Source: a virus. Taken from it: 64,000 bases of DNA. This document shows positions 6,261 to 62,325 of the stretch, piece after piece (the stretch's first letter is position 1; every line of letters begins with the position of its first letter). The stretch lies in the IMG/VR virus record IMGVR_UViG_3300044701_002822, positions 1 to 64,000 of that record. One strand, 5' to 3'. The position numbers were made by a program, and so were the translations under genes. Under the pieces are notes generated by a model, which did no database searches, was not told where the DNA came from, and saw only the letters and a program-made list of their open reading frames with translations.

Positions 6261-6261
6261 T

Positions 6262-34777: not shown

Positions 34778-35473
34778 ATGTACATTGATGGCGTAAATAT
34801 ACCTCTAGAAAAATCTTGGAAGCGTATAGGTGTAAGTTTAAGCGGCGGTGCTGACAGTGCATTGCTTGCCTATTTGTTGTTGAGAAACACCGATGCAGAT
34901 TTTTATTTTACAACACAAATACGAATGTGGAAAACTAGACCATGGCAAAAATACGTTGCCAAGGATGTTGTAGGTTGGTTTACAGAAAAATTTAAAAACA
35001 AGATCTTTCATTTAGAAAATTTTGTTCCGCCGGAAATGGAAGAACCTAATACAACTTTTATTACTGACGAATACGGCAAATCTAAACCTGGAAATAGAAT
35101 TATTCTTAGGGCATACAACGAATATGCTGCCCATACATATAAATTAGATGCATGGTACGCTGGTGTAAATCTAAACCCTAGTGAAATATTCAACGGTGCT
35201 CCACAAGACAGAAACAATGCTGTTATTCCTGTTCAATTAGAACACATGGGTATTCCAGTAATTCATCCTTTTGTGAATATACAAAAAGACTGGATCATAC
35301 GACAGTATATAAATCAAGGTGTTGGTGAGTTGCTAGAAATTACACGCAGTTGCGAAGGTGAGTTTACAAACTTAGATTATACAAATTATAAACCTTATCA
35401 ACCGGTACCTGTATGTGGAACTTGTTTTTGGTGTAAAGAAAGAGAATGGGGCATATCAAATGCACTCAAGTAA
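34778..35473 (+). CDS. QueC-like PP-loop ATPase
   Basis: 231 residues. The PP-loop SGGADS is at 22-27 after IPLEKSWKRIGVSL, a lead-in like that of 5466. TRSCEGE and CGTCFWCKEREWGI at the C-terminus keep the four zinc cysteines. Compact relative to the pair at 4639-6260. Overlaps the twitch radical SAM gene 35460 by 14 bases, so the association of QueC-like and twitch radical SAM genes recurs. Likely an ATP-dependent ligase/amidating enzyme; substrate unknown. Confidence 0.8.
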   Translation: MYIDGVNIPLEKSWKRIGVSLSGGADSALLAYLLLRNTDADFYFTTQIRMWKTRPWQKYVAKDVVGWFTEKFKNKIFHLENFVPPEMEEPNTTFITDEYGKSKPGNRIILRAYNEYAAHTYKLDAWYAGVNLNPSEIFNGAPQDRNNAVIPVQLEHMGIPVIHPFVNIQKDWIIRQYINQGVGELLEITRSCEGEFTNLDYTNYKPYQPVPVCGTCFWCKEREWGISNALK

Positions 35474-36725
35474 AACCTTTTGTATGCATCCTTTTACAGG
35501 ACTTGCTACACGAGAAGACGGAGCAATTAAAGTTTGCTGCCGCAGCCAACCTGTTGGATGGATACAAAACGAAAGTTTAGAATCGGCTTGGAACAACGAT
35601 ACTATGAAACGTATACGTCGACAGGTGCTCAACGATCAACAACCTGCAGAATGTGTTCCATGCTTTGATTTAGAAGCACAGGGTGTCGAAAGTTTAAGAC
35701 AGCGGCACATACGAGATAGTTTTCCTGATGCTCGTGTTAATTTGTACCCAAATGCATTAGATAAATTAAACGACGATTACACTATGCCATTTGAATTTCC
35801 TACAATTGAAATCAAAATTAACAATCTATGTAACTTAAAATGTCGTATGTGCAACCCGTTAGACAGCACTCAATGGAAAGACTGGGAAAGTGTAGAAGAG
35901 TTTTATGCTGCGGAAAACAACTATCTTGTAGATGCTGTTCGTAAGCTAGGATTAACCAAGGCACCGTTTGTAGGACTGTTCGAAGATACAGCTGAGTTTT
36001 GGAACAATTTGGAAAAACTGTTGCCTTACTTTAGACGTGTAGAATTTGCCGGTGGCGAACCGCTGATGGATCCTACACATTACAAGATATTAGATGTACT
36101 TGCACGTAACGGTAAGAACATAGAAATAAAGTACGCTACAAACGGCACAGTGACGGGTATAAAGGGCGGAAGGACAATACACGACTATTGGCCCAAATTT
36201 AAAAGAGTAAGCGTAAACGTAAGCATAGACGGGCTGTATGACGTGTATGAATACATACGCGGCAACGGAGACTTTGAAACTGTAAAGCAGAATGTAGAAA
36301 TATTTAAAAGTTTTCCTAATGTAGATTATGTTGTAGGTGCATGTACAGTACAAGTTGGCAATATTATGCAGTTGCCCGACATCATTCCTTACTTCTTAAA
36401 CGAAATGGGCATTGTGTTTTATTCTCACAGAGTAAATTATCCTAATGTATTAAGTGCTCAAACCGTTCACCCTAAATTAAAACTTAAAGTAGTTAGACAA
36501 TTAGAAATGTTAAAAGCAGAAGTGGCAAATTATCCTATAATGAATTTGCACAAAGATGTGTTGCCAGTAACACTGAGACAAATTGATGACAACATAAACT
36601 TTTTACAAGCACGTGACTTGCACAGCAAATGGACACAAACTGTAGCATTTAATCATCGCTTAGACAGTACACGCAAACAAGGACCTTTTGAAAAGGTTAT
36701 ACCTGAATATGCTCCGTACATTTGA
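35460..36725 (+). CDS. Twitch-domain radical SAM protein
   Basis: 421 residues from ATG 35460, chosen because it overlaps the upstream gene by 14 bases and starts just before the conserved SKTFCMHPF block. Twitch cysteines C8, C26-C27, C65 and C68; radical SAM motif C124, C128, C131 (CNLKCRMC); AGGEPLM later. It has a longer central insert than most paralogues. The unit continues with an unknown protein and two short radical SAM genes. Confidence 0.92.
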   Translation: MHSSKTFCMHPFTGLATREDGAIKVCCRSQPVGWIQNESLESAWNNDTMKRIRRQVLNDQQPAECVPCFDLEAQGVESLRQRHIRDSFPDARVNLYPNALDKLNDDYTMPFEFPTIEIKINNLCNLKCRMCNPLDSTQWKDWESVEEFYAAENNYLVDAVRKLGLTKAPFVGLFEDTAEFWNNLEKLLPYFRRVEFAGGEPLMDPTHYKILDVLARNGKNIEIKYATNGTVTGIKGGRTIHDYWPKFKRVSVNVSIDGLYDVYEYIRGNGDFETVKQNVEIFKSFPNVDYVVGACTVQVGNIMQLPDIIPYFLNEMGIVFYSHRVNYPNVLSAQTVHPKLKLKVVRQLEMLKAEVANYPIMNLHKDVLPVTLRQIDDNINFLQARDLHSKWTQTVAFNHRLDSTRKQGPFEKVIPEYAPYI

Positions 36726-43446: not shown

Positions 43447-44387
43447 TTTTTAATTCCTATTTCTCCAGTACACCCACAAATTTCTTTTGTGCAAGTAACA
43501 GGTTTTATCACAGGAGAAAAACTAAAGTTAGGATCATTTATATTATAAGGTTTATCAAAAAGTTTTTGCTGACAGTTACCTGTAAGTAAGCCATTGGTTA
43601 TTTTTAAATGATCAACTCCTAAATTGCAACTCCATCCACGAAAATAATTTAAATTATTTCTAGTAATCCAACTGTCGCTGTTTGTAACAACTTTAGTATT
43701 GTCTGCTTGTGTAATTGTTATTTCAGTTTGCGGCTTACGAGAGGTATGTTCAAACCATTCTGTATCAGGGTATCGTTTAATTGGATCATCAAAGAATTTT
43801 AACTGTTCTATTTTATACTTGTGTATTCCATCAAAGTGTACTACCTTAGCAATTATTGGCCATGCATATACACTGGTTTGAAAATAATCTACTAGGCTAA
43901 CACATTTTTCAAATGCTGCTGGATCCATCAATACATCAACATTTACAAATACACCTGCTTGATATAAAAAATCAGCAAGTTTAGCAATTTTACCCTGCTT
44001 GGCATATTCATGATGAACACTAATATTAACATGATCTAAAACTCTGCCAGCCTTGGTCCACCAAATAATTCCTCTAGTGGCATTTGTACTAATTTCTAAA
44101 ATGCAATTGTAATTCTGTTTAAGCCATTCGATTAATGGTAAAAAATCATCCCATAGTGTAGGCTCTCCACCTACAAAAAAAATGTTAAAAATTTCTTTAC
44201 CATTATTTTTGTAATGATCTAAAACTTTTTTAAGATTTTTCTTAACTGTTTCTAATTCTGGCCAAGGCAAATCGCCTTCGTTACTTCCCGGAAAGCAGTA
44301 ATTACACTTTTGATTACAAGTGTTTCCTAACATGTATTCTATTCGCAGTACATTATCAGGCTGATTGTTTTCAACTTTAATAATCAT
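43431..44387 (-). CDS. Radical SAM protein, short type
   Basis: 318 residues. Cluster motif C24, C28, C31 (CNQKCNYC), FVGGEPTLW, and a C-terminal SCNLGVDHL, GNCQQKLF and CTKEICGCTG tail. Paralogue of 57475-58449, which shares the GGEPTxW block and the C-terminal IxxxxCxxExCxC end. Its ATG is coupled to the stop of 44384 by ATGA. Confidence 0.88.
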   Translation of the reverse strand: MIIKVENNQPDNVLRIEYMLGNTCNQKCNYCFPGSNEGDLPWPELETVKKNLKKVLDHYKNNGKEIFNIFFVGGEPTLWDDFLPLIEWLKQNYNCILEISTNATRGIIWWTKAGRVLDHVNISVHHEYAKQGKIAKLADFLYQAGVFVNVDVLMDPAAFEKCVSLVDYFQTSVYAWPIIAKVVHFDGIHKYKIEQLKFFDDPIKRYPDTEWFEHTSRKPQTEITITQADNTKVVTNSDSWITRNNLNYFRGWSCNLGVDHLKITNGLLTGNCQQKLFDKPYNINDPNFSFSPVIKPVTCTKEICGCTGEIGIKKCLSQ

Positions 44388-45769
44388 AGTAAATGAGCCA
44401 ACTCCGGAAAAACTTTTTTAGCTTCTAGTCCACGAATTTTGTCCAGTTTATTTACGTATTCTTTAAATCCAGATAAAAGATGGCTGTTGTCGGCACTGTC
44501 CATGTGATTAAGTATTGCTTCCCAACGTCTCCATCCATACGGATTATGTTCCCAAAAGTCTGTGTCAGTTGTATACCAGTTATACAGCCAACCTTTAAAA
44601 CTCATAAATGTATCTCTTATTTCTTCTTTATCTTCTTTAGGAAGCATTTGTATGCTTAAAAATGTAGGAATATAAAGCAAGTGCATGTTGATTAAGCCGC
44701 CGCCGGCTGCAACACCTCTTATAACTTCTGTGTTTACCTTTTTAAAATTGCTGGTTACTTTCCAGTGTATAAAATCTGGTAAGTGTTTGATATTAAAAAT
44801 TTGCACGGCTGTTGCAATACTAGGACGTATGTTTTCAGGTGTATTATCTAACATATGCAGATTGCGTTCAACAGTTTCCCAGTCTGTGGGATATCTTATA
44901 TAGTTATTGCGAGAACCTGCTGCATCTATACTAACTCCAACTTTGACTTTACCGAAATATTTCCATAGATTTATTAAATCTTCATCAATTAATATTCCGT
45001 TGGTGTTGTATCTTAATGTTATATTAGTGCTGAATCCTTGTCTTACAATTTCTTCTATAAACTTTTTATGCTCTTTAATCATAAGAGGTTCACCGCCAGC
45101 AAAATAAACTTCACGTAGATTTGGTATTTGTTTATAAAGTTGATTCCAAAATTCTTCGCTTTCGTGCCATTTATTGTTAAAGGAATCTTTGTCCCATTGC
45201 ATCTGATTTTTTACAGTTGCATTTTCAAGGTTAGGATATAATTCTTTCCAATCTTTTACCCACTTGCTACTGTCATGTGGACTGCACATCACGCACTTAA
45301 TGTTACAAGTGTGTCCTAGTCTTAGGTCAAGATAAACTAACTTTTCAGGAACTCTGCCATCAGCCTTGGTGTTATTTAATAGCGTTTTAAGATTTTGTCC
45401 TCGTTCCATCCACGATGTTGTTTCCCACATGCGTTTGCTAACTATGCCTTTGTCTTCTTCTTCGAAGCATTTAGTACAACTTGCAGGAACTTTTCCTTCC
45501 ATCATAGTTTTACGGACATTTCTCATGTAGTCGCTGTTCCATGCCTCCATAGGTGTAGTGTTTGCAAAATTGATATGTTCACCTATATCGTTTTTTACAA
45601 TGCCTATTGTGTGATCGTTACCAGCACCGCTGGCGTTGGCACTACAGCACAATCTCATATCACCATTGGGTCTAGTTGCCATATGTAACCACGGCAAAGC
45701 ACAAAATGTAGGAGTTGCTTGATCAGAAATTGTTTCTTGCCATGTTTCTAAATATTTTGCTACAGTCAT
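44384..45769 (-). CDS. Twitch-domain radical SAM protein
   Basis: 461 residues. Twitch cysteines C23, C41-C42, C98 and C101; radical SAM motif C155, C159, C162 (CNIKCVMC); AGGEPLM follows. The closest paralogue is 10998-12407: both have an extended, glycine-rich region before the C-terminal helices. It overlaps the methyltransferase-like gene 45766 by ATGA. Same family as the other ten. Confidence 0.92.
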   Translation of the reverse strand: MTVAKYLETWQETISDQATPTFCALPWLHMATRPNGDMRLCCSANASGAGNDHTIGIVKNDIGEHINFANTTPMEAWNSDYMRNVRKTMMEGKVPASCTKCFEEEDKGIVSKRMWETTSWMERGQNLKTLLNNTKADGRVPEKLVYLDLRLGHTCNIKCVMCSPHDSSKWVKDWKELYPNLENATVKNQMQWDKDSFNNKWHESEEFWNQLYKQIPNLREVYFAGGEPLMIKEHKKFIEEIVRQGFSTNITLRYNTNGILIDEDLINLWKYFGKVKVGVSIDAAGSRNNYIRYPTDWETVERNLHMLDNTPENIRPSIATAVQIFNIKHLPDFIHWKVTSNFKKVNTEVIRGVAAGGGLINMHLLYIPTFLSIQMLPKEDKEEIRDTFMSFKGWLYNWYTTDTDFWEHNPYGWRRWEAILNHMDSADNSHLLSGFKEYVNKLDKIRGLEAKKVFPELAHLL

Positions 45770-46377
45770 TTGTATCCTATTACTAGAAACCTATTGTACA
45801 AAGGTAATTCTAATGTATCTGTTTTTAATATATTACTTAGCCCGCTATGTGTAGCAAAATTTTCTACAGTATCAAAACACCGTATATGTTCAGGTAATGC
45901 ATAGTAATTGTTATTTTGTAAAACAATTAAACTGTCGTTTGGAACATTTTTTAGCCAGCGGTTGTATTTGTCTTGTGCTACATGTTCAGTGCTAGTATTG
46001 ATAACAATGTTAGGAGTTTTATTGTAAACGTAATACTCCATATCTTGTATAACTTGTAAAAATCTACCTTCAATTTCTTGACGTTTGCAGATATCACTAG
46101 CAGGACCTGCTGTTTCACTTTCAATGTCTACATTTTCTATACGATTAATACTTATACCACTGTTAAACAGTAAACTTGCTAGTACACCATTCCAGCCGCC
46201 ATGTATTACAATATCAAGTGGATTTCCGTTAACAGGTATATAAGGATAAAGATTTTTTATCAGCCACTCTTTACTGCGAAGTTGTCCTTTCCAAAAACTT
46301 TCTAAAACGCCATAGTGATTTTCACTGTTACGCACAGCGTCCATCCAATACGCTACGTCTTCTAAGCTTATGTACAC
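45766..46377 (-). CDS. Methyltransferase-like protein
   Basis: 203 residues. Aligns with the C-terminal part of 13699-14625: QLRSKEWLIKNL, then IVIHGGWNGVLASLLFNSG as the glycine-rich turn, VDIES, VINTSTEHV, and the shared LELPLYNRFLVIGYK ending. The helical repeats present in 13699 are absent. Predicted class I SAM methyltransferase-type Rossmann fold, but the motif I sequence is atypical, so the call is tentative. Both paralogues sit directly upstream of a radical SAM gene. Confidence 0.5.
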   Translation of the reverse strand: MYISLEDVAYWMDAVRNSENHYGVLESFWKGQLRSKEWLIKNLYPYIPVNGNPLDIVIHGGWNGVLASLLFNSGISINRIENVDIESETAGPASDICKRQEIEGRFLQVIQDMEYYVYNKTPNIVINTSTEHVAQDKYNRWLKNVPNDSLIVLQNNNYYALPEHIRCFDTVENFATHSGLSNILKTDTLELPLYNRFLVIGYK

Positions 46378-47510
46378 AACACTTCTCTTAGCGGAATGTC
46401 TAAATTTTTAATGCCAAATAAAAACTTTTTTCTATTTAGAATTCTTCTTTTTTGTGTTATTAGGTTTAGCTGTTGTATGTTGTTAGTTGACATTACTTTA
46501 TGCATACTTTCTATAGCTTTAAAAACACGAACACTATCATCGGCAGTATCGTAACTATGATCAACAATATCATCAAACATGTCAAACCCTAATAATCGTA
46601 ATCTTTGTACTAACCCTCTTGGTCCTATTATAACAGGTATTTGTCCTGCTGTAAAGACTTTCCATGTTTTTTCAGTAATAAATGTTTCATCTATAAAATT
46701 GTACTCGGGCAAATAATATGTTTCTGTAACCAAATTTATAAGTGTATTATCATAGATTTTTGGATGTAAATCATTTGGTAAACTTTTGTTTGATAAATCA
46801 TATGTGTCAACAACTAGAGGAAGTTTTTTATTTGTTATACTTACTTTTTGTTTTATAATATTTTGATATTCTGTGGGTATTTCGGGCAGGCGAGATAAAA
46901 TTGAGTTTTCAAAATTGTCGTCACTATCAAATTCATAACTACGATCGTTAGCTGTTACAATACCATCCTCTAAAATGTCAACAACGTCTAAGTAAGCAAT
47001 TGTAAATAATCTATGCAATCTTGGGCGATTATTCATACAGCAATACCAAATATTTTTTTGATACTTTACTGGAATTTCGCAATCATTTACCCAATCACGC
47101 ATCCGGTGATACCAAAGATTGTGACTCCACACATAAAAAGCACTTGGCACTTTTTTCTTTTCCAACCAATGGTCATATACTTTTTGTGATTCTAAGTGAC
47201 CTGTAGCATAAATTATTTTTTTGTGTAAAGTGTGTTTGTTTACAAATTCGTGTACATCACTAAAGCTAAGATAAGCATACCCCTCTTCGGTGTCATCAAG
47301 GACAATATAAAAGTGTTCACGCTGTCTTGCTAAGTCTATTAACCAAGTGGGTACAGGTTCGGATGCGTTTCTAAATCTTACAAAATAAAAATAGAATCCG
47401 TTTGGATTGTTTTGCCAAACGGATAACTCTTGTTGTATTAGTCCAATCTCATCGAGATTGTTTATTCCATTGTAATTTGTATAACAATTTACTTGATTAT
47501 TTGTTTCCAA
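46368..47510 (-). CDS. Glycosyltransferase-like protein (GT10/exostosin-like)
   Basis: 380 residues. ETFITEKTWKVFTAGQIPVIIG and LRLLGFDMFDDIVDHSY form the conserved C-terminal block, equivalent to ITEKxxxA ... PIxxG ... LGFxxFDDIxDxSYD in GT10 and exostosin-like GT-B enzymes, where the Glu-Lys pair contacts the nucleotide sugar phosphates. The N-terminal half contains PRLHRLFTI, an acceptor-side segment. Best match to the family in this window along with 48375. It overlaps the epimerase gene by 22 bases. Confidence 0.6.
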   Translation of the reverse strand: METNNQVNCYTNYNGINNLDEIGLIQQELSVWQNNPNGFYFYFVRFRNASEPVPTWLIDLARQREHFYIVLDDTEEGYAYLSFSDVHEFVNKHTLHKKIIYATGHLESQKVYDHWLEKKKVPSAFYVWSHNLWYHRMRDWVNDCEIPVKYQKNIWYCCMNNRPRLHRLFTIAYLDVVDILEDGIVTANDRSYEFDSDDNFENSILSRLPEIPTEYQNIIKQKVSITNKKLPLVVDTYDLSNKSLPNDLHPKIYDNTLINLVTETYYLPEYNFIDETFITEKTWKVFTAGQIPVIIGPRGLVQRLRLLGFDMFDDIVDHSYDTADDSVRVFKAIESMHKVMSTNNIQQLNLITQKRRILNRKKFLFGIKNLDIPLREVLCT

Positions 47511-48400
47511 TGATGGATAGTCCTATCAATACCTTCTTCATAAGAAATTTTAGGTGCCCAACCAGTTTTGCTGGTTAAAAGGTTATGGTTACTATTCAAC
47601 CAATAAATTTCCCCATGTCTTGGCGGCTTAGTATTCCAATTAACTTGACCATTCCATTGTAGCTGTTCAGCAATGTAGTTGGCACAGTCTTTGATTTTTC
47701 TAGGATCATCTGGGCCAATAGTGTAAAAGTTTCCTTTACACGCAGCTCTATTTTCAATAACAGCCATCCATGCGTCTAACAAGTCGTCAATGTATATAAA
47801 GTTTCTATAAGGCTCAGCATATCCTAAGTTACAAACATCACCCTTTAACATCTGGCTAATAATTTGTTCGGTTACAAAATAATTGTTGTCTTTACGACCA
47901 TAGCTGTTGGTTTGTCTAAAACTTGCAAATTCTAATCCGTATGCTCTTGAAGCGTACTCTAAATATTTTTCACAACCATATTTTGCTACAGCATAAGGTG
48001 CATTAGGGTTAGGTTGAGTATGCTCGTCAAATGCTACGCTGTTTACATAAGTTCCAGTTTCCTCTACTTCATCACTGATAGGTTGCCATCCATAAACTTC
48101 CATTGTGCTAGCAAACACAAAGTAAGGCATTGGATCTAGCTGTCTACAAGCTTCGATAAGATTTACAGTTCCTACATAATTTACTTCACTAAACTCAATT
48201 TGTTCATAGAAACTTTCTTGAACTTCAGTTCGTGCAGCAAGATGAACAATTATATCAGGTTTTGCTTGTGCAACTTCAGCCTTTACATCACTGTGTTTTT
48301 TTAGATCACTTTTTAACTCATGTACTTCTCCCATGGCCTTTAAACGCGGCAACAAATGTTGACCTATAAATCCGCTACTTCCTGTTATTAATATTTTCAT
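47489..48400 (-). CDS. NAD-dependent epimerase/dehydratase (extended SDR)
   Basis: 303 residues. TGSSGFIG (GxxGxxG) at 7-14, a HLAA segment near 53-56, ASTMEVYG with catalytic Ser/Thr, and PYAVAKYGCEKY with the YxxxK pair. These are the hallmarks of sugar-nucleotide epimerases and dehydratases (UDP-glucose 4-epimerase, GDP-mannose dehydratase type). FYTIGPDDPRKI and a PPRHGEI segment match the substrate end of the family. The substrate sugar cannot be fixed from sequence. Flanked by two GT-like genes. Confidence 0.85.
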   Translation of the reverse strand: MKILITGSSGFIGQHLLPRLKAMGEVHELKSDLKKHSDVKAEVAQAKPDIIVHLAARTEVQESFYEQIEFSEVNYVGTVNLIEACRQLDPMPYFVFASTMEVYGWQPISDEVEETGTYVNSVAFDEHTQPNPNAPYAVAKYGCEKYLEYASRAYGLEFASFRQTNSYGRKDNNYFVTEQIISQMLKGDVCNLGYAEPYRNFIYIDDLLDAWMAVIENRAACKGNFYTIGPDDPRKIKDCANYIAEQLQWNGQVNWNTKPPRHGEIYWLNSNHNLLTSKTGWAPKISYEEGIDRTIHHWKQIIK

Positions 48401-49478
48401 AATGCTCTCTCAAAAATTTAAATTTGTTTTGATAACCTTCGGTACTTGCTATATTTAAAAATTCTAAATGATTATGTACGTGAAAATGGTTAGAATTTTT
48501 TGGAAGCAATTTGTTTATGCGTTTGCGAGTTTTTTTATTTTCCACTATAGACAACATATTCAACCAGTTATGATGTACTTTAGACTGTACAGCATCTCTC
48601 AAATACTGAATGTTATAAGTAGTTAATTTTTTAATTTGCTGCATGTACATATCGCATCTTATTTCGTCGTCTTCAATTTCGTCAAAACTGTAGTCAATTA
48701 TGTCATCAAAAATTTCAAAACCTAAACTTTTCATATATGCGTTTGCCAATGGATGTCCGTAAATAACAAATGGTCTTCTGTGGTAGATAGGAATATATGT
48801 TTTTTCTGTAATGAATTGAACGTCAGTTGCTGATTCGCAAATTACACTGAATACACTATTTTTAAAATGTTGTGGCGGTCTTAGTATGTCTGCTATTCCA
48901 CCCTCTGGCCTTGTAAATTCTTCGTCAAACTTTAGTGACTCCGGCGACCACCATTTAAATTTGTAACTATCAAATGTTCTATTTTCAAAATTATGAAAAC
49001 TGATATAACCTTTTTCAAACAATTGTTCTTTATACATATAATCTAAAAACATTTGTCTGTGAGGATGAGCTCTACCATTCATACTAACAAAGTGTTTTGT
49101 TGGGTTAGCATTTATTCCATAAGGATTTAAATCGTGGGTTAGTGCATGACAGATAACTTGATGTGCAAACCAAGTTTCCCATGGCACTAAATTTTCTGAA
49201 AACATATTTAAGTCATGCCTGTATCCAAATTCGTTTGATATATTGTTACCAACTAAACACGTAAGTTCTACATTATAGTATTTGCAAAATCCTAGAAATA
49301 TGTCAAAACTTTGCTGGTCTTGAAACCAAGGTTGAAAATTATATTCTGACGGCATCAAAAGTATTATTTTGTATATTTTTTTATTTTTTACAGCATCAAC
49401 TAAAATTAAGTAATCTCGATGATCAAATCCCCATACGTCACAAAAATATACTCCATCTATTATTCTTCCGAAATTCAT
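48375..49478 (-). CDS. Glycosyltransferase-like protein (GT10/exostosin-like)
   Basis: 367 residues. SVICESATDVQFITEKTYIPIYHRR then PFVIYGHPLA and MKSLGFEIFDDIIDYSFD is the same C-terminal block as 46368 and 52662. FVSMNGRAHPHR lies in the acceptor half. Head of the minus unit ending at 42364; the ATG has AAAGG upstream but no clear late promoter. Overlaps the epimerase gene by 26 bases. Confidence 0.6.
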   Translation of the reverse strand: MNFGRIIDGVYFCDVWGFDHRDYLILVDAVKNKKIYKIILLMPSEYNFQPWFQDQQSFDIFLGFCKYYNVELTCLVGNNISNEFGYRHDLNMFSENLVPWETWFAHQVICHALTHDLNPYGINANPTKHFVSMNGRAHPHRQMFLDYMYKEQLFEKGYISFHNFENRTFDSYKFKWWSPESLKFDEEFTRPEGGIADILRPPQHFKNSVFSVICESATDVQFITEKTYIPIYHRRPFVIYGHPLANAYMKSLGFEIFDDIIDYSFDEIEDDEIRCDMYMQQIKKLTTYNIQYLRDAVQSKVHHNWLNMLSIVENKKTRKRINKLLPKNSNHFHVHNHLEFLNIASTEGYQNKFKFLREHYENINNRK

Positions 49479-49497
49479 TTTGTAATTGGCATCCTTT

Positions 49498-49509: not shown

Positions 49510-50106
49510 ATGTTTGATATTGTGTCTCAGTTTGAAGAAAAAATTGCAGATTTTTATGGTGCACCATATGCAGTAGCAACTGATTGTTGCACACATGCTA
49601 TCGAACTTTGTTTAAGATACACAAAATCAAACAATTTAACTATTCCTACTCATACATACTTATCGATTCCTATGACAGCAATGAAATTGAATTTGAACTG
49701 GCAGTGGAATGATTCGATCTGGGAAAATTACTATTATATTACAGAAAATATAATTGATGCTGCGGTTTTGTGGAAACCCAATAGTTACATACCAAATACA
49801 TATATGTGTGTGAGTTTTCAATTTAAAAAACATCTGAGCTTAGGAAGAGGCGGTATTATACTTTTAGATAATTTGCAAGCCAAAAATGATTTAATAAAAT
49901 TAAGTTATGACGGACGTCACAGAGATGCACCATGGCCGGCTCAATCTATAGATAGTTTAGGCTATCATTATTACATGACTCCTGAGACTGCACAATTAGG
50001 TTTAAACAAATTAGAAGATGCAATTATCAAGCAACCTAAAATATGGGGCACAAACGATTATCCCGATTTAAGAACTATGCCGGTTTTTGATACCAAACTT
50101 CAATAA
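49510..50106 (+). CDS. Miniature DegT/DnrJ/EryC1-type aminotransferase-like protein
   Basis: 198 residues from ATG 49510, supported by the promoter; an upstream TTG gives only a few extra residues. FEEKIADFYGAPYAVATDCCTHAIELCLRY and TIPTHTYLS match the N-terminal part of PLP-dependent sugar aminotransferases, IIDAAVLW the Asp strand, and SFQFKKHLSLGRGG the PLP-lysine loop (K107). Full-length relatives are 360-400 residues; here the middle is shortened and the C-terminal domain is missing. No frameshift is visible. It may need a partner, or be a decayed but translated gene. Confidence 0.7.
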   Translation: MFDIVSQFEEKIADFYGAPYAVATDCCTHAIELCLRYTKSNNLTIPTHTYLSIPMTAMKLNLNWQWNDSIWENYYYITENIIDAAVLWKPNSYIPNTYMCVSFQFKKHLSLGRGGIILLDNLQAKNDLIKLSYDGRHRDAPWPAQSIDSLGYHYYMTPETAQLGLNKLEDAIIKQPKIWGTNDYPDLRTMPVFDTKLQ

Positions 50107-50893
50107 TGTTATAGTGATCAATACAATTATCAAACACTGTTTTATATCGTATATCTACTAATCTATTAAAGTACTCTATAGTTTTTGGAACATTGGGTTT
50201 ATAAACTGTTTTTACATGATTTTCAACACAGGTTTGTAATTCGTTAAATAATTCAACTGTTGTGGATTTTAATGTTAATCCTAATTTTGGATATATCCAA
50301 TCTTTTACAATATTCATATGCCCTTTTATATCAGGATGACAATCAGGAATCACTCCAAATGGTTTGTTTGTTTCGGTTAATTCAAATGTATAAACAGGAA
50401 TTTCAGGCAACATAGCTGTGTAAAAATCTACTAATTCTTTTGATTTTTTACTTACATTTGTTATAAATGCCTCGTTGGTTGCTAATTCAAATGCACTGCC
50501 TTGCCAAACAATGTTTTTATGAAATAGGTCATTGGCAATCTTTATTGCTGTAGCATTTTTTACTATATCGTTGTCGTAACTCCAATATCGTTTAATATAG
50601 TAATTACTGTATTCTGGATTATTTGAATTGAATACACTACCAGCAGCTACCCATCGCCGATCTCTTACACGATCTTCTCGACTCCAACTTGTCCATAATA
50701 TAAAAATTTTATCATCATCTGTAAATTTTAATTTGTTGTTAGCTTCAATCATTCTATGCAAGATGCCAACATTACCCAACCCTGCAATGCCAAAGTTATG
50801 GTATTCAACTCCTTGATCGTAACCTATAACTTTAGCCCATGTTGGCCACCCATATTGAGTAAAACTACAACCAAAAAATATTAATCTGCTCAT
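50075..50893 (-). CDS. SGNH/GDSL-hydrolase-like protein
   Basis: 272 residues. FFGCSFTQYG at residues 6-15 is the GxS block I of SGNH hydrolases (Ser-10), AGLGNVG the block II Gly, and DCHPDIKGH near residue 190 the catalytic DxxH. These fit esterases and acyl hydrolases. It resembles 51862 and 53978 in the first two blocks; all three may remove or transfer acyl groups. Convergent with 49510 (32-base overlap); its promoter TATAAATA lies within the next gene's first codons. Confidence 0.65.
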   Translation of the reverse strand: MSRLIFFGCSFTQYGWPTWAKVIGYDQGVEYHNFGIAGLGNVGILHRMIEANNKLKFTDDDKIFILWTSWSREDRVRDRRWVAAGSVFNSNNPEYSNYYIKRYWSYDNDIVKNATAIKIANDLFHKNIVWQGSAFELATNEAFITNVSKKSKELVDFYTAMLPEIPVYTFELTETNKPFGVIPDCHPDIKGHMNIVKDWIYPKLGLTLKSTTVELFNELQTCVENHVKTVYKPNVPKTIEYFNRLVDIRYKTVFDNCIDHYNIIEVWYQKPA

Positions 50894-50900
50894 CCAAAAC

Positions 50901-50908
50901 CTTAAATA
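50901..50908 (+). promoter_or_regulatory. Late-type promoter variant for the 50914 gene
   Basis: CTTAAATA at 50901-50908, five bases before ATG 50914, giving the spacing seen at other leaderless heads. Confidence 0.45.
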
Positions 50909-50913
50909 ATGTT

Positions 50914-51888
50914 ATGAATATTTATAGTAAAAACGAATGGGATCCTCTAAAAAAGGTAATAGTTGGTGTTGCTGACTATTGTCGTATTCCTGAAATGGAT
51001 AAAAGTTTACGAGTAATAAATTATGCTGACCGTAAGGATGTCAGCGATGTTGTGTCCGGATTATATCCCGATCAAGTTGTTGAAGAAAGCAACGAAGACT
51101 TAGAAACCTTTGTAAAATTCTTAGAAGGTGAAAGTGTTGAAGTTGTAAGACCCAATCGCTCACCATCAGTTGAATATTACAACTACTGTCCTAGAGATAC
51201 TGTATTTGTTCACGGAAACAGATTGCTTGCAACTCCTATGAGTTTACGAGCAAGAAGTAGCGAGTTTCATCATATGCTCCCTCATATAGCAGGTGTAGAA
51301 CTTAGCCCGAGATATAAAGACGACGACTTGTATGATGAAACCTGTGTAGGTGATCCAGATCGTCTTGCTTTAACTGAAGTAGCACCTTGCTTCGATGCTG
51401 CTAATACAATACGTGCAAATGATGATATTTTGTATTTGGTAAGCAACAGTGGCAACAAAGCAGGTGCTGCTTATTTACAGGAGTGGGTAGGAAATCCAAA
51501 AGTTCATATACTTGAAAATGTATACAGTTATATGCACATAGATAGCACTATTGCATTTTTACGTGAAGGACTATTACTTGCTAATCCTAGTAGAATCAAA
51601 AGCCGTGATGCATTGCCAGGACCCTTCAAAAACTGGGATATTATTTGGGCACCAGAACCGATAGATATGGGTCATTACCCCGGATATTGTAATGCAAGCA
51701 CCTGGATAAATGTTAACTTGTTTAGTGTTAATCCTAATCTAGTTGCACTAGAGGAACATCAAGAACCTACACGCAAGGCGTTAGAAGCACATGGCATCGA
51801 ATGTGCTATGTTGCCACTTAGACATTCTAGAACCTTAGGCGGATGCTTTCATTGTTGCACATTAGACCTTGTGCGTGAAGTCGGGTAG
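50914..51888 (+). CDS. Amidinotransferase (glycine/inosamine amidinotransferase family)
   Basis: 324 residues, full-length and with all catalytic residues: PRD at 93-95, EVAPCFDAAN with D161, MHIDST with H208, and GGCFHCCTLD with catalytic C314. These enzymes move the amidino group of arginine to a primary amine, forming a guanidino compound; bacterial members (StrB and relatives) decorate aminocyclitols and sugars. The neighbouring aminotransferase-like gene (49510) would be a natural supplier of the amine. The annotation is the most secure functional assignment in this part of the window. Confidence 0.9.
   Translation: MNIYSKNEWDPLKKVIVGVADYCRIPEMDKSLRVINYADRKDVSDVVSGLYPDQVVEESNEDLETFVKFLEGESVEVVRPNRSPSVEYYNYCPRDTVFVHGNRLLATPMSLRARSSEFHHMLPHIAGVELSPRYKDDDLYDETCVGDPDRLALTEVAPCFDAANTIRANDDILYLVSNSGNKAGAAYLQEWVGNPKVHILENVYSYMHIDSTIAFLREGLLLANPSRIKSRDALPGPFKNWDIIWAPEPIDMGHYPGYCNASTWINVNLFSVNPNLVALEEHQEPTRKALEAHGIECAMLPLRHSRTLGGCFHCCTLDLVREVG
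50919..50926 (-). promoter_or_regulatory. T4-type late promoter for the 50893 gene
   Basis: Perfect TATAAATA on the minus strand (50926-50919), lying inside the first codons of the divergent amidinotransferase gene. Its leader to ATG 50893 is 25 bases and holds AAGG, so this head is a leadered type. Confidence 0.5.
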
Positions 51889-52617
51889 TTTTAACAACGA
51901 GGAAATAATTTCAGCAGTTTCTTTATGAAACTTCGGACCATCGTGTTGTCCATCTCTGGCTTTGTCTCTGGCTAACGGATGTATGTGCCAAATCTTATAT
52001 CTACTACGCTGTAGTTCTTCTTCTAAATCATCATCCCAAGTGAAATTAAGAACAGGCACGCCCAACATCTTCCAGCTATTGTTCACTGCTTCAAACCAAG
52101 ACCATACATTGAGACTAAGATCTCCTGTGTCTGTGATATAACGTTTTCCCCACCATCTGCCGTCATGAGTAGCTGTTTCGCTCATATCTTCAAATCTTAT
52201 TCCGTAGTTTTCTTTAAATCCAAAACTCTTTCTGTGTTTTTGAGGCCATTGAATTATCACAATTTTTGGTTTAGGCAGTTGTGAATTTATCCACATAAGA
52301 TTATTTAAATAAACAAAGTCAATACCTGTGGCTTGTTTAGCAGCATTGTAGTAATCTATACCAAGTGTTTTAGCAACTTGATCTATCCAAATTTGTTCTA
52401 CATTTAAACCAACACCTTCGGTATAACTACAGCCATAACTTAAAATAAAATCATTATCAAGAGTTTCAATTTCTTTTGTTCTATAGCCAAGACTGTTGAA
52501 TTTATATTGTATTGGCCAACGAGGATTGATAACTCTATCAGTACTAAAAATAGCAGAAGTTTTATTCATATATGAATAATCGATTATTATTGGTGCATCA
52601 GGTTTAATCAAGTACAT
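51862..52617 (-). CDS. SGNH-hydrolase-like protein
   Basis: 251 residues. SYGCSYTEGVG gives the block I GxS (Gly-Cys-Ser), AKQATGID a block II Gly, and the C-terminal DGQHDGPKFH the catalytic Asp/His. About 30% of the sequence is Trp/Asp-rich. Related to 50075 and 53978. Convergent with the amidinotransferase by 27 bases. An acyl-ester hydrolase or acyltransferase acting on a sugar or lipid is plausible. Confidence 0.6.
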   Translation of the reverse strand: MYLIKPDAPIIIDYSYMNKTSAIFSTDRVINPRWPIQYKFNSLGYRTKEIETLDNDFILSYGCSYTEGVGLNVEQIWIDQVAKTLGIDYYNAAKQATGIDFVYLNNLMWINSQLPKPKIVIIQWPQKHRKSFGFKENYGIRFEDMSETATHDGRWWGKRYITDTGDLSLNVWSWFEAVNNSWKMLGVPVLNFTWDDDLEEELQRSRYKIWHIHPLARDKARDGQHDGPKFHKETAEIISSLLKLPDFTHKV

Positions 52618-52661: not shown

Positions 52662-53981
52662 GTGAGTTATCAAATTTGGTACTTGTCTATATATTTTAGA
52701 CCAAAAAACAAACTTTTACCAGAGTTAATTAAAAAAGACGGTACTAGAACACCCTTAATGGACATTGGTAAAATAGAAATGTTAATGCTAATGATAAAAG
52801 AAAGTTTTCTTAGAAATGAGGACAGACCGGTATTAATTTTTAATGGCACACATTCTATAGAACATCTAGATAAGTTGTTTATAACACCAAGACATAAGAA
52901 ATTATTACAAGAAGAAGAGTGTGCTTTTTATTTTTTCGAGCCTCTTACACATTACATTTGTAGAGAAGGACGTGATCCAAATTTAGAACCTCATATTTTA
53001 AGATGCAATAACGATCCTTACGAAATTGCCAATGTTCGCTGCTTAGAGTTAGACAGTTTGCAAGCATGGGTAGAAAAATACAACATAAAAAATTTGCATG
53101 TTTACTGTACAGATTATAAAAGCTGTGAATATTACAAAGATCTTTATCCAAATTTAGTTCTCAAAGAAATGGATTTTTTTGTAAGTTGGTACTGTACTAG
53201 ATATATGGCTCAAATAATTAGAGGTGATAGTTTAGGCCATTTAGAAAAAGAATATATGAAGCCCGAAAACATTACAAAAAAGTTTTGGAGCGGGGCTTGG
53301 CGATATGATCCTAGCAGACATTTTATTACTGCATATCTTGCTGGAAAAGATTTAATAAAAGAAAATAATGTAAGTTTTTATTTTAAACTTCCTAACTCAG
53401 AATTTAAAAGACGTATGTGGTTTGGATGGAAAGAGTTTTCATTAAAATTTCCTCGTATGGCCGAGATATTACTAGAAGGCAATACAAAATTACAAGAACT
53501 AGTTCCACTAAGTATAGAAATTGACAACCCAGCGGCTTTAGAGGAACGTGCTCAAGATCCCGAAGCAGACAGCGATGGCAAAAACACAAGAAAAAATCAC
53601 GATCCTGTCAATTCTTATTTAGAATCATTTTGTGCAATTGTACAAGAAACACGAGTTACACAACCGTGGGCAAACATCAGCGAAAAAACTCTTAACGCAA
53701 TGAAAAATTATAGACCATTTGTAATTGCAGGAGCACCAGGAACAATAAAAATGTTGAAAGACATGGGCTTCAAAACGTTCGATCGTTGGTGGGACGAAAG
53801 CTACGACGATGTAGTTGGAAACAAAGAACGTTTGGTAAAATTGTGTGAAACAATTGATTACATAAACAATTTTAGCATAGAAGAAATGAGAGAAATATAC
53901 AAAGAGATGACTCCCATACTAAAACACAACGTAGAAAATTTTGCTAAAATTGAAGACTGGTACAACAATCGGAATATTTAA
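52662..53981 (+). CDS. Glycosyltransferase-like protein (GT10/exostosin-like)
   Basis: 439 residues from a GTG start. AIVQETRVTQPWANISEKT, RPFVIAGAPGTI and LKDMGFKTFDRWWDESYDD make the same C-terminal block as 46368 and 48375, with SEKT in place of TEKT. The N-terminal half has no recognised motif. It is longer than the others by about 60 residues. Overlaps the convergent SGNH gene by four bases only. Confidence 0.58.
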   Translation: MSYQIWYLSIYFRPKNKLLPELIKKDGTRTPLMDIGKIEMLMLMIKESFLRNEDRPVLIFNGTHSIEHLDKLFITPRHKKLLQEEECAFYFFEPLTHYICREGRDPNLEPHILRCNNDPYEIANVRCLELDSLQAWVEKYNIKNLHVYCTDYKSCEYYKDLYPNLVLKEMDFFVSWYCTRYMAQIIRGDSLGHLEKEYMKPENITKKFWSGAWRYDPSRHFITAYLAGKDLIKENNVSFYFKLPNSEFKRRMWFGWKEFSLKFPRMAEILLEGNTKLQELVPLSIEIDNPAALEERAQDPEADSDGKNTRKNHDPVNSYLESFCAIVQETRVTQPWANISEKTLNAMKNYRPFVIAGAPGTIKMLKDMGFKTFDRWWDESYDDVVGNKERLVKLCETIDYINNFSIEEMREIYKEMTPILKHNVENFAKIEDWYNNRNI

Positions 53982-57485: not shown

Positions 57486-58449
57486 GTATTCTCTCTTTGG
57501 GTATAATAATGTCTGTTCCGCAATGACAGTGTTCTTTATTACATATAACAGGTTTTAAATCAAATGTCAAGTTTTCATCTAATATGTTGCCGTGGCGATT
57601 TCCTACACCGCAACTTGCACTGCTAATTTGTCCAATAGGATTTATAAAAAGTGCATCATCTACATAACATTTCCACCCACTAAAAAAGTTTTGTCTGTCA
57701 GCAATAATTTTATTACTGTTTGTGGATTCTATTACTCCATTGTCATAATGACTAATACTAATAGCACTGTTTTCTCTATAAGGTTTTGGTAAACGCATCA
57801 TAGTTTCAAATCTTGCGTTTTCTAGAAACTCTACTTTTGCAGGATCATCATATTTCCACGGTCCAGCATTCACACTCATTTCATCAAACAGAGGTGTCCA
57901 TTCTAAGTTATAGTTAGGCACTTCGTTACGTACACGTTCACCAAACTCGGCTACTTCCCAAAAACGTTCTTCGTGCATCAACATCTTGGTGCAAAGATAA
58001 TCTACCTTATCGCAAAGAAAACGTGCATTTTCAATATAACGATCTTTTTTACTAAATTCAACATGAAAACTTGCAACAATGTCATCAAATAACTTGTAGT
58101 GTTCTTCCCAATAACGCAATGGTCGTGACAGGTTTGTATTAACTGCCACTGTTAAACTATTTCCTAGCCAACCTTTTAGATGCTGTGTTAATGGAATAAA
58201 GTTTTCCCAATGCGTAGGCTCGCCGCCACTGTAAAATATTTTAAAATGTTTGTAGCCACGATCTTTGTATTGTTGGAAAATATTAGTAACATTTCTAATA
58301 TAAACATCTAAGTTACTGTTGTTACGACTGTCACCAGACCAGTTTCCTGGGTTACAATAGCTGCACTGAAAATTGCAAAAATTGTTTACTTGCCAAGTAA
58401 TAGTTGCATACGGTTCTGCAATAGGAGTAATTTTTACTAACTTAGACAT
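57475..58449 (-). CDS. Radical SAM protein, short type
   Basis: 324 residues. Cluster motif C25, C29, C32 (CNFQCSYC), SGGEPTHW, and a C-terminal tail with GWKCYVDDALF, SASCGVG and CNKEHCHCG. Related to 43431-44387 and 37523-38410. It lies between the B12 radical SAM gene and a twitch radical SAM gene, so four radical SAM genes of three types stand in a row here. Confidence 0.88.
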   Translation of the reverse strand: MSKLVKITPIAEPYATITWQVNNFCNFQCSYCNPGNWSGDSRNNSNLDVYIRNVTNIFQQYKDRGYKHFKIFYSGGEPTHWENFIPLTQHLKGWLGNSLTVAVNTNLSRPLRYWEEHYKLFDDIVASFHVEFSKKDRYIENARFLCDKVDYLCTKMLMHEERFWEVAEFGERVRNEVPNYNLEWTPLFDEMSVNAGPWKYDDPAKVEFLENARFETMMRLPKPYRENSAISISHYDNGVIESTNSNKIIADRQNFFSGWKCYVDDALFINPIGQISSASCGVGNRHGNILDENLTFDLKPVICNKEHCHCGTDIIIPKERIHGL

Positions 58450-59731
58450 ACTTTCTTAACCACTCCATTTCTGGAAACACATTCCAAAAATCTTCTTGCC
58501 GATGTTGATCTAACCCATGGTTTTTTTCGAAAAACTGTTTTAATTTTTCTTGGTCTAGTTTTCCTGCATTCATAAATTGAATGACACTATCAATTTTGCC
58601 AAGTACGTCCTTAACTACACCTGGCTTTGCAATAATACGATCTTTGATCTTATCATATGCCCATGCTTTGTAGTCAATATACTTTGCTCGTAATTCTATT
58701 TTTACATCTTCAGGAATATTATCAATACGCATAAAATCTGGTCCAGTAAGCACATTAAGTCTACAGTTTTCAATATCTACCAATCCACGTTCTACCCAAT
58801 CCATATGAAAGTCTGGCCAATTCCAAGCGTTATACAAACTGATAGTAGGCGTAAGTTCAAAATAAACGTGCGGCAATTGTTCGAGCATTTCGATTCTGTT
58901 GCGTTCTATTTGCTGCCAATCAGTGCCGTGACGTATAAATTCAGCTCTTGCACCATTGGCATCAAGGCTTGCACTAACTTGTATGTCTTGGAAACTTTTC
59001 CAATAGTGGATGATACTTTTCTTTTTAAAACGTAAATTGCTAAAGTTTGTAGTATAACGCAATCTTACATCTGTTTTGCCTGCTGCAATCCATTCATCAA
59101 GTATTTTGTAGTGTTCGTTTGTAATCAAAGGTTCGCCGCCGGCCCAATACACTTCTTCTACATCCGGCAAATATTTTTGCAGTTGATCCCAATAATTCTG
59201 ATGTTTAGCAATATTAACAATGATGCTACCGTCGTTACGTAATATGTTAGCAACTTCATGCTCGCCATATAGTTCGCCGTGTTCTTGAGCATGTAAACTA
59301 CTAAGTTCAGGACCACAAGTTCTGCACTTCATGTTACAGATATTGCTGAATCTAATGTCCATGTATGCCATACGCATATCTGATTCAGGAATACTACCAT
59401 CAGATGCAGTCTTTTCAACCAAGTCAAAATGTTTATCACCAAACCACTGATTGTGATTTTTACGCAGTGTCCAAATATATGTGCTGTCTTCTAATTCGTA
59501 GCAACGTCTGCAACAGTCGAGTTTTTTACCTTCCAGCATAGCAAGACGTAGTTCTTTGTAGCGTTCACTGTTCCATACTTGCTCGATAGTGCCTTCTTTA
59601 ACATTACCAAAAGGTTGATCGCTATCTGCAATACAGCAAGGCATTGCACGACCATCTGGCCATACGTGCATATGAATCCAAGGTAAAATACAAAAGGCTT
59701 TGTTTTCGTTTAGTAATATATCTTTAAGCAT
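58442..59731 (-). CDS. Twitch-domain radical SAM protein
   Basis: 429 residues. Twitch cysteines C14, C32-C33, and C73, C74 and C77 (CCRRCYELED); radical SAM motif C132, C136, C139 (CNMKCRTC); AGGEPLI follows. It overlaps the next gene by eight bases on each side. Closest to 59724, with which it shares the CMFPW/CILPW entry and the twin-lysine acidic stretch after the twitch. Confidence 0.92.
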   Translation of the reverse strand: MLKDILLNENKAFCILPWIHMHVWPDGRAMPCCIADSDQPFGNVKEGTIEQVWNSERYKELRLAMLEGKKLDCCRRCYELEDSTYIWTLRKNHNQWFGDKHFDLVEKTASDGSIPESDMRMAYMDIRFSNICNMKCRTCGPELSSLHAQEHGELYGEHEVANILRNDGSIIVNIAKHQNYWDQLQKYLPDVEEVYWAGGEPLITNEHYKILDEWIAAGKTDVRLRYTTNFSNLRFKKKSIIHYWKSFQDIQVSASLDANGARAEFIRHGTDWQQIERNRIEMLEQLPHVYFELTPTISLYNAWNWPDFHMDWVERGLVDIENCRLNVLTGPDFMRIDNIPEDVKIELRAKYIDYKAWAYDKIKDRIIAKPGVVKDVLGKIDSVIQFMNAGKLDQEKLKQFFEKNHGLDQHRQEDFWNVFPEMEWLRKYV

Positions 59732-60950
59732 CTAGCATCTCTTTTAATTCTGGAAATACACTTACAAAACTTTCATTGCGGATTTCGTCTCGTCTCTTTA
59801 CATGATGTTGAAAATCAGTTTTATATTCGTTCCACTGATCTTCTTCATTGGTAAAATTAATAGCATCATTTACATGTACTCCTTGATACCAATCATTAGT
59901 AATCATAAAATCGTAAACTTTTTTTAGTTTATCCGATCCTACTTTTTTAATCGACGACGGTAAAATTTTAGAACAGTAGTATGTAGGAGTTAATGCACGA
60001 TAGATACTAATCATATCTTTTTGTCTTAACAAGCAGTTTTCAATCATGTAAAAAAGAAACTCGTCCATTGTAGCATAATTAAATGCACTCAAAACAGTAT
60101 TAAACTGAAAGTCAATATAGTCAACATCTCTGATACTTTTTAAGTTCTGTTCTACTACGCCCCAGTCAGTTCCGTGCCGCAAATACTCAGCACGTTCCCC
60201 GTAATGATCGAGACTTGCTGAGATTTCTACACGTTTAAACTTACTCCACATGTTCATTATGTCGTATTTTTTATATTTAAAATTACTCATGTTAGTGTTA
60301 TAACGAAGTGTAATACGTTTGTTTGCACCTGTGCGAATCATTTCTTCTAGAATAACATAATGCTCGTCTGTGATAAGAGGCTCACCGCCTGCAAAGTATG
60401 CAAGATCCATATGACACACTTGCGATTTAATTTCTTCTAATAAGGCACCTGTACTATCGGCATGTTGGATAATTCTATAATCAGGAGGCGTCCAATCGTG
60501 TTGCTTCATTTCTTGAGCCCACTGACTGCTGAATTCGCTACCGCATGTACGACACTTAAAGTTACAGATATTACTAAATCTCACATCAAAATATTTCATT
60601 TTGAATTCGGGTACAGTGCCATCCGATTGTGTAGTTGTTACAACTTCGTCAAAGTCTTTACCAAAATGTTCAATGCTATATTTGCGAAAACTAAACGGCG
60701 ATGTTTCTTCATGTTTATAACAGTAGTCGCATATGCTGCTTTTTTTACCTGCAAGCATGTCTAAACGGAGTTGACGTATCTTATCTCCATTGAATACTTC
60801 TTTTAGACTTTTTCCCTTGATGTTGTCAAACGGTGCAGTATAGTCTGAACTACAGCACGGATAAACATTACCCAACGGTGTAACATTCATATGTACCCAA
60901 GGAAACATACAAAATGTTTTACTTTCGTTTAATAACTTTTCTTTATCCAT
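59724..60950 (-). CDS. Twitch-domain radical SAM protein
   Basis: 408 residues from the ATG at 60950, which overlaps the upstream stop (60943) by eight bases, the recurring junction; an ATG at 60959 in frame would add three residues. Twitch cysteines C14, C32-C33, C74 and C77 (CDYCYKHEE); radical SAM motif C129, C133, C136 (CNFKCRTC); AGGEPLI later. Tandem partner of 58442. Confidence 0.9.
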   Translation of the reverse strand: MDKEKLLNESKTFCMFPWVHMNVTPLGNVYPCCSSDYTAPFDNIKGKSLKEVFNGDKIRQLRLDMLAGKKSSICDYCYKHEETSPFSFRKYSIEHFGKDFDEVVTTTQSDGTVPEFKMKYFDVRFSNICNFKCRTCGSEFSSQWAQEMKQHDWTPPDYRIIQHADSTGALLEEIKSQVCHMDLAYFAGGEPLITDEHYVILEEMIRTGANKRITLRYNTNMSNFKYKKYDIMNMWSKFKRVEISASLDHYGERAEYLRHGTDWGVVEQNLKSIRDVDYIDFQFNTVLSAFNYATMDEFLFYMIENCLLRQKDMISIYRALTPTYYCSKILPSSIKKVGSDKLKKVYDFMITNDWYQGVHVNDAINFTNEEDQWNEYKTDFQHHVKRRDEIRNESFVSVFPELKEMLDA

Positions 60951-62325
60951 TTGCTGCATCCTTACACAGTTGGAAGAAATCTGACATTTCTGGAAATGCA
61001 GATTCAAAATCTAGACTACGTCTACGATCTTGCTCTTTAAAAAAGTTCCAAAAATCTTTACGTCCTTCGAGTATGCGTTGAGGAGTATACTCTGTGGTTT
61101 TCATATAGTCAACTACACGTCTAAACTTTTCATATTCCAAATTACTAAAATGATGCTTGCTACCTTCTTTTACATGATACTTGATAAAGTCCAAATGACT
61201 TTCCATATACGGCATGTAATTTTCCTTAGGAAGTATATTCATATCATATTGTAGAGGCTCTTTGAGATAAGGAGTATCAAAATGAATACGTTGCCAACGT
61301 CCGCTGTCAACATCATTATATTTGCTTCTCCATTCCAACATTTTTTCTAGCAAACTTTGAAATGTTGTAACACTGAACAAATTAAATGTAATCATAAATG
61401 TTACAGGTGCGGTAGTATTGAGCATGAAATAATCTAAATTACGTTCAAATACTTCAAGGTCAAGTCCATCACGAATATATTCAGCACGTGGTCCCCAGGT
61501 GTCAACACTGGTAAACAACTTAAACTGCTTGATTTTATTCTGTGTCAGCAAACTGTTTACACTGTCGGTAAACTTTTCAAGTTGCTTTTCTTTGCCGCCA
61601 AGGTTGCTGTTAACATTCAACTCAAGATGCGGCTTTGGTTCTTTTTCTAGTTCTTCAAACAGTCGGTACGTGCTTTTTTGAATAGTAGGCTCGCCGCCTG
61701 TAATACGCAGGATGTTTAGTGTCTTGCTAACTTCCGGCCACCATTTCCACCAAGCACGTACATAAGGATTCGAATCTTCTTCGTAGATACGGAACCAGTC
61801 AATGTCATTGCGATGATTGCGAACATTGGTGTAAGGACCGTGTTGACGTATTTCGTTGTAGTAACGACTGCTAGCCTTGGGATGGCAATACCCGCAACGG
61901 AAATTACACTCGTTGCCAAATGAAATTTCAATGTACTCAGGATTTACGTTAAAGTCCCAGGGATTAAATTTTACTTCCTGCAAACGTTCTTCATTGTAGA
62001 TACTGCCACTGCGAATGTGACGATCACTGATGTAATCTTCACCCATGTTTTCAATATTCCAGCAGTACTGACAACCAACACACTGCTTGCCTTCTAACAT
62101 CTCTTTGCGTTCTTGCTTTTTTTGTTTTGTGTTATGCAACGCACTAGGATTGGTTAGTAGCTCATCTACATCAATTTGATGCGGAGCAGGGTGATAACAA
62201 CTGTGTGTTTCACCTGTTTGCAGATAGATTGTTGTATGATACCATTTAGCAAAACAAAATGTTGGACTAAAATGACGTTTTGTAATACCGTTAATTGTTT
62301 TTAAACGATCTTCATTCAATGACAT
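60943..62325 (-). CDS. Twitch-domain radical SAM protein with an altered cysteine pair
   Basis: 460 residues. The twitch domain has C24 and C82, C85, C88 (CVGCQYCWNIE), but where relatives have a CC pair this protein has only C43 (HSCYHP). Radical SAM motif C140, C144, C147 (CNFRCGYC); TGGEPTI follows. The sequence is longer and rich in Trp and Asn. The single Cys may still ligate the cluster if the neighbouring His substitutes. Its start overlaps 62325 by one base. Confidence 0.9.
   Translation of the reverse strand: MSLNEDRLKTINGITKRHFSPTFCFAKWYHTTIYLQTGETHSCYHPAPHQIDVDELLTNPSALHNTKQKKQERKEMLEGKQCVGCQYCWNIENMGEDYISDRHIRSGSIYNEERLQEVKFNPWDFNVNPEYIEISFGNECNFRCGYCHPKASSRYYNEIRQHGPYTNVRNHRNDIDWFRIYEEDSNPYVRAWWKWWPEVSKTLNILRITGGEPTIQKSTYRLFEELEKEPKPHLELNVNSNLGGKEKQLEKFTDSVNSLLTQNKIKQFKLFTSVDTWGPRAEYIRDGLDLEVFERNLDYFMLNTTAPVTFMITFNLFSVTTFQSLLEKMLEWRSKYNDVDSGRWQRIHFDTPYLKEPLQYDMNILPKENYMPYMESHLDFIKYHVKEGSKHHFSNLEYEKFRRVVDYMKTTEYTPQRILEGRKDFWNFFKEQDRRRSLDFESAFPEMSDFFQLCKDAANG

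Follow-up and report, generated by a model that had tools for sequence, protein, structure and literature searches.

A compact DegT-type protein accompanies StrB1-like amidinotransferases in marine phages and suggests the synthesis of guanidine-bearing sugars

Two neighboring genes in a viral genome fragment raise the question of whether a DegT-type PLP protein of about half the usual size can form an amine by itself, and whether the amidinotransferase encoded beside it converts this amine into a guanidino group. The genes lie in a stretch of 64,000 bases, here called the window, which is part of a 76,827-base virus record.

The first ORF (49510–50106, plus strand), termed mini-DegT here, encodes 198 amino acids counted from the ATG, from which all its residues are numbered; an in-frame TTG at 49486 is a possible alternative start that would give 206 amino acids. 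It matches the Pfam profile PF01041 (DegT_DnrJ_EryC1) with 57.2 bits, above the membership cut-off of 19.8. The match comes in two pieces, covering profile positions 25–109 and 166–236 of 360, and leaves out positions 110–165 (about 55 in the middle) and 237–360 (approximately the last 120). Mini-DegT thus does not possess the full-length large domain and small C-terminal domain of PF01041 enzymes. Lys107 (SFQFKKHLSLGRGG; codon at 49828–49830, plus strand) aligns with the SFxxxK lysine of PF01041 and is predicted to form the Schiff base with PLP. These results bear out the initial annotation, which had read the ORF as a 198-residue miniature DegT with a PLP lysine loop. A displaced or frame-shifted second half was not found, because the rest of the 76,827-base record contains no further PF01041 match. 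NCBIfam made no equivalog call for mini-DegT. Judged by its sequence, the ORF encodes a DegT-type PLP enzyme that lacks an internal segment and the entire C-terminal domain, and it is classified here as a compact derivative of the DegT/DnrJ/EryC1/StrS proteins rather than a standard member.

Relatives of mini-DegT were found by scanning IMG/VR in at least 595 viral loci. The 87 distinct sequences from the loci that we fetched are mostly 194–209 amino acids long, and S102, F103, K107, D83, A85, T28 and Y50, as well as G115, G135, R136, G151, A161 and G164, never vary among them. The Schiff-base lysine (K107) and the PLP aspartate (D83) that mark PF01041 enzymes are thus invariant in all 87 members, and the Ser and Thr of the phosphate loop and the inter-subunit loop are kept in all or nearly all. 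Because so many distinct homologues share this length and have intact motifs, the small size of the ORF at 49510 does not result from chance or damage, and we rejected the interpretation of a pseudogene or truncation. In a wider alignment that includes a protein of Flavobacterium phage immuto with 29% identity, K107, D83, S102, R136 and parts of the GYHYYM loop remain invariant. The residue following the PLP aspartate is mostly Val, compared with the usual Gln or His (D-A-A-Q). One scan of 84,980 species genomes returned 16 mini-DegT loci, from Prochlorococcus single cells, Marinimicrobia, Alphaproteobacteria, Bacteroidota and others, and some of the contigs in question may themselves be phage. 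Overall, mini-DegT is a phage-dominated family with a stable, compact form. In phage immuto (L143, 4989–7064), the neighbors of the 214-aa mini-DegT are an epimerase and a PglD-like acetyltransferase, and the phage separately encodes a full-length DegT of the WecE type.

An AlphaFold2 model of mini-DegT based on 41 sequences has a mean pLDDT of 93.1, a pTM of 0.90 and six strands, so that a compact DegT fold is confidently predicted from a single chain. The best PDB matches identified by Foldseek are GDP-perosamine synthase, AHBA synthase, BtrR, ArnB, AtS13 and PglE, with E values down to 7e-10 and TM scores over the query of 0.63–0.74. In hhalign, mini-DegT aligns to full-length phage DegTs with a probability of 99.3% and one main internal gap, and the alignment stops at column 253 of 374 of the full-length profile. 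Fold-type-I PLP enzymes are normally described as having a seven-stranded large domain, a small domain at the C-terminus and an active site located where the subunits of the dimer meet (PMC9309667). Mini-DegT thus corresponds to the DegT core without its C-terminal domain and without a middle segment, which, judged from the gap in the profile and the number of strands, is probably one strand and the adjacent helix. It shares with DegT sugar aminotransferases (GDP-perosamine synthase, ArnB, PglE, AHBA synthase, BtrR) the PLP lysine loop, the aspartate of the DAA motif, the phosphate-binding Ser and Thr, a GxNxRM-type inter-subunit loop and the overall topology of the large domain. By contrast, these enzymes comprise approximately 360–400 amino acids including a C-terminal domain, their large domain has seven strands compared to the six modelled here, and Gln or His occupies the position of Val after the PLP aspartate. 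The inter-subunit loop reads GYHYYM in mini-DegT and GYNYRM in standard DegT enzymes, and its retention argues for a DegT-like dimer.

The second ORF (50914–51888, plus strand) encodes a predicted L-arginine:amine amidinotransferase of 324 amino acids. It has no match in Pfam or NCBIfam, and PHROGs places it in a family of unknown function. The best solved relative, aligned over the whole length with an E value of 1.9e-62, is the inosamine-phosphate amidinotransferase StrB1 (1bwd), and the profile match to StrB1 reaches 2.5e-90. The AlphaFold2 model (pLDDT 94.6) superposes on 1bwd with a TM score of 0.94 and an rmsd of 1.7; HsvA, SxtG and AGAT are the next fold matches. The catalytic triad of AGAT consists of Asp254, His303 and Cys407 (PMC3684758). 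These residues align with D161, H208 and C314 of the phage protein, all of which are invariant in 32 aligned relatives, and C314 (codon at 51853–51855, plus strand) is the predicted nucleophile. D95, D210, R227 and S262 are likewise invariant in the 32 relatives and align with AGAT active-site residues. By sequence, the ORF thus encodes an intact amidinotransferase of the StrB1-like type, in which, as the initial annotation had stated, no catalytic residue is missing.

The phage protein resembles StrB1, the L-arginine:inosamine-phosphate amidinotransferase of streptomycin biosynthesis, in whole-length homology, the Asp/His/Cys triad, the arginine-binding residues and the fold, but differs from it in its acceptor pocket and in belonging to a phage glycan locus rather than an antibiotic cluster. 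HsvA, SxtG and AGAT share the pentein fold and the triad, whereas their sequence similarity is lower than that of StrB1, and their acceptors are a polyamine, a toxin precursor and glycine, respectively. The acceptor of the phage enzyme cannot be read from its sequence because the pocket residues S205-Y206-M207 match neither A-S-T of StrB1 nor N-P-M of AGAT. A role in DNA modification was considered and dismissed; nothing supports it, and the one phage paper we found that names an amidinotransferase only cites an unrelated archaeal tRNA enzyme in its reference list.

The fetched loci contain 100 distinct phage amidinotransferases. A mini-DegT lies within 8 kb of 96 of them, on the same strand in 94 and upstream in 92, and the distance is usually one or two genes. 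Where the two genes are adjacent, their ORFs overlap or nearly overlap in most cases. Three of the four exceptions (L127, L135, L293) sit on a short stretch or at the edge of a contig, and the fourth is a 35-kb fragment without a DegT match (L119). The pairing is also kept for divergent amidinotransferases that are 38–42% identical to the protein encoded at 50914 (L137–L140), and it extends across islands with radical-SAM and GT10-like genes, as in the window, cassettes with GT25 genes, and a cultured cyanophage. By contrast, no amidinotransferase was found near full-length phage DegTs at any of 146 loci, a control that covers two full-length subfamilies only, and on this ground we rejected the idea that the pairing is a by-product of any DegT locus. 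A further base-rate scan, built on a radical-SAM protein, yielded 8 loci and does not enter this comparison. As judged from these sequences, mini-DegT and the amidinotransferase are in a real and specific functional association that is ancient and near-obligatory for the amidinotransferase.

The converse does not hold, since many mini-DegTs belong to a second setting. Where no amidinotransferase is present, mini-DegT adjoins an SDR in 69 of 86 cases and a WbuC-like cupin in 49 of 86, where WbuC refers to a sub-threshold NCBIfam match, and a small methyltransferase is often also present in this cassette. A search of the whole records of 35 such loci identified an amidinotransferase match of any kind in 3 and a strong one in 2. 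On a tree of 142 mini-DegTs, the presence of the amidinotransferase requires 8 changes, compared to 47 with shuffled labels, and most WbuC-type sequences fall into one group with a modest support of 88. Cassettes of WbuC-like cupin, methyltransferase, mini-DegT and SDR were also seen on contigs binned to Prochlorococcus, Marinimicrobia, Alphaproteobacteria and Bacteroidota, which may be of chromosomal or phage origin (L146–L158). Its gene contexts make mini-DegT look like a general-purpose enzyme for amine formation that has entered two long-lasting partnerships. The pair predicts guanidinylation, whereas mini-DegT by itself, given the second setting, does not.

The genes around the pair point to glycan synthesis. 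GT10-like or GT25 genes are among its commonest neighbors, and the window contains a GT10 (fucosyltransferase)-like protein at 46368–47510 (minus strand; sub-threshold PF00852 match, 2.4e-4, 21.3 bits against a cut-off of 23.9). Two glycosyltransferase-like paralogues were assigned to the same group by clustering, one at 48375–49478 (minus strand) and one without a Pfam match at 52662–53981 (plus strand). An extended SDR of the NAD epimerase/4,6-dehydratase type (47489–48400, minus strand; PF01370, 1.3e-40), whose best NCBIfam match, dTDP-glucose 4,6-dehydratase, is far below cut-off, is a possible source of a keto-sugar, although the supplier of the keto group is not constant from locus to locus. 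Two conserved genes without Pfam matches resemble SGNH esterases by eye; one lies between the two genes of the pair in opposite orientation (50075–50893, minus strand; family 5, in 65 loci) and the other flanks it (51862–52617, minus strand; family 8, in 64 loci). Asp/Asn-hydroxylase-like 2OG oxygenases with weak PF05118 matches (family f10) are located within three genes of 66 of the 100 amidinotransferases. In the window, our f10 profile has three matches, all far from the pair, including 25950–26435 (minus strand, E 2.2e-15) and 32842–33426 (minus strand, E 1.1e-14). Cyclitols had initially been named as a possible product class, and this variant has no specific support: among 50 window proteins scanned with Pfam, from a record that is a fragment, no cyclitol-forming enzyme was recognized.

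Beyond the window, the 76,827-base record goes on to genes that match tail-fibre and virion proteins. Host-recognition clusters of pelagimyophages likewise combine glycosyltransferase and radical-SAM genes near tail-fibre genes in marine phage, and the passages of that report covered here do not mention an amidinotransferase or a mini-DegT pair (PMC7029224). The density of radical-SAM ORFs in the window is striking for phage DNA, with 20 scanned ORFs matching PF04055 at E ≤ 0.01 between 643 and 62325, 15 of them above the Pfam cut-off. The radical-SAM core is preceded by an N-terminal SPASM-type cluster domain in 44384–45769, 58442–59731, 59724–61007, 35415–36725, 6238–7443 and 10998–12407, and the first of these matches NCBIfam N_Twi_rSAM (NF033640) with 401 bits. 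The ORF at 31418–32296 (minus strand) fuses a cold-shock domain to a 2OG-Fe(II) oxygenase domain. ORFs 4639–5466, 5466–6260 and 34778–35473 form one family, the third with a weak, sub-cut-off QueC match. A 969-aa protein encoded at 16276–19185 (minus strand) has no Pfam or PHROGs match but strongly matches the profile of family f13, which recurs in loci related to the window.

With family assignment, intact active-site residues, compact fold and gene association established by sequence comparison and modelling, a pathway can be proposed. An SDR such as that at 47489–48400, or an oxygenase, would supply a keto-sugar. Mini-DegT would bind PLP and transaminate the keto group of a (nucleotide-)sugar or a comparable intermediate, probably as a homodimer without a second half, given that the PLP site and the partner-reaching inter-subunit loop are kept. 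The StrB1-like enzyme would then transfer the amidino group of L-arginine onto the amine of this same substrate to yield a guanidino group. Glycosyltransferases of the locus would attach the guanidino-sugar to a glycan, either a host surface polysaccharide altered during infection or a decoration of the virion or its tail. In streptomycin biosynthesis, the DegT enzyme StsC makes the amine that StrB1 amidinates. The phage pair would follow the same logic, and differs in its compact DegT, its glycosyltransferase and 2OG oxygenase neighbors and its setting. The earlier prediction of a guanidinylated product from amine formation followed by amidination therefore holds in part: the association (96 of 100 against 0 of 146) and the streptomycin precedent favor it, mini-DegT alone is no mark of such a product, and the product itself is one that we infer. 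We consider it somewhat more probable than the opposite that a minimal, self-sufficient mini-DegT aminates a sugar and the amidinotransferase guanidinylates this amine inside a phage glycan locus. The chances appear evenly balanced that the amine step of a virus-encoded guanidino-sugar pathway in marine viruses is carried out by a fold-type-I PLP aminotransferase that is self-sufficient with about 198 residues, half the size of its known relatives, and no C-terminal domain.

Self-sufficiency can be questioned, as the loss of the middle segment and the C-terminal domain could abolish substrate binding. Mini-DegT might instead be a PLP-binding subunit that needs a host full-length DegT or an unrecognized protein to complete its active site, as its half size and the loss of the C-terminal domain and part of the large domain would suggest; the initial annotation had advised looking for a partner that supplies the missing half. 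We looked for such a partner by sequence and found none. PF01041 matches 38 of 42 amidinotransferase-bearing records, with mini-DegT alone in 34 and a full-length DegT as well in 4, and no free C-terminal half was detected by PF01041 in any of the 42, which speaks against a separate half of this kind. Nearly all records are fragments. The complete 244-kb genome of Synechococcus phage S-SCSM2R contains the pair with mini-DegT as its sole DegT. No neighboring gene is constant in all settings of mini-DegT, its fold is confidently predicted alone, and the family is stable and compact; dependence on a partner is thus quite improbable.

A change of chemistry, to another PLP reaction (elimination, epimerization or dehydration) or to a non-catalytic PLP protein, seems to us similarly hard to credit. 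The Val in place of the Gln or His that usually contacts O3', and the absent C-terminal domain, do count against an aminotransferase, and we found no biochemistry of this family in the literature. However, the lysine, the aspartate and the phosphate-binding residues are invariant, and the gene context is that of amino sugars, for example the SDR and the PglD-like acetyltransferase in Flavobacterium phage immuto. ColD-type dehydratases have lost the DegT Schiff-base lysine, which mini-DegT keeps. Less remote, if still doubtful, is the possibility that both enzymes are active on separate substrates of one glycan or metabolite, with mini-DegT making an amino sugar and the amidinotransferase acting on another amine, such as glycine, a polyamine, or a substituent of the amino-acid or ethanolamine type. 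Glycine, lysine and polyamines are also among the acceptors of known amidinotransferases (PMC3684758, PMC4887976). The fold of HsvA matches closely, and mini-DegT often occurs without the amidinotransferase. Against this, the pairing is near-obligatory and specific, and StrB1, to which the phage enzyme is closest among solved structures in both sequence and fold, acts on an inosamine phosphate.

In conclusion, the stronger result is twofold: compact DegT proteins form a widespread family, and their coupling to an amidinotransferase is near-obligatory for the latter. Neither turned up as described in the open-access full texts that we searched, and the idea of a missing partner is disfavored. 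Because the conserved mini-DegT nearly always accompanies the amidinotransferase, our results suggest that marine phages with this pair make guanidine-bearing sugars, probably for surface glycans. If true, a widespread natural family would show how little fold-type-I PLP enzymes need, and mini-DegT could serve as a small scaffold for making amino sugars. Its coupling to a StrB1-like amidinotransferase leads to the prediction of guanidino-sugars in marine viruses, and thereby of a testable chemistry by which host or virion glycans may be altered.
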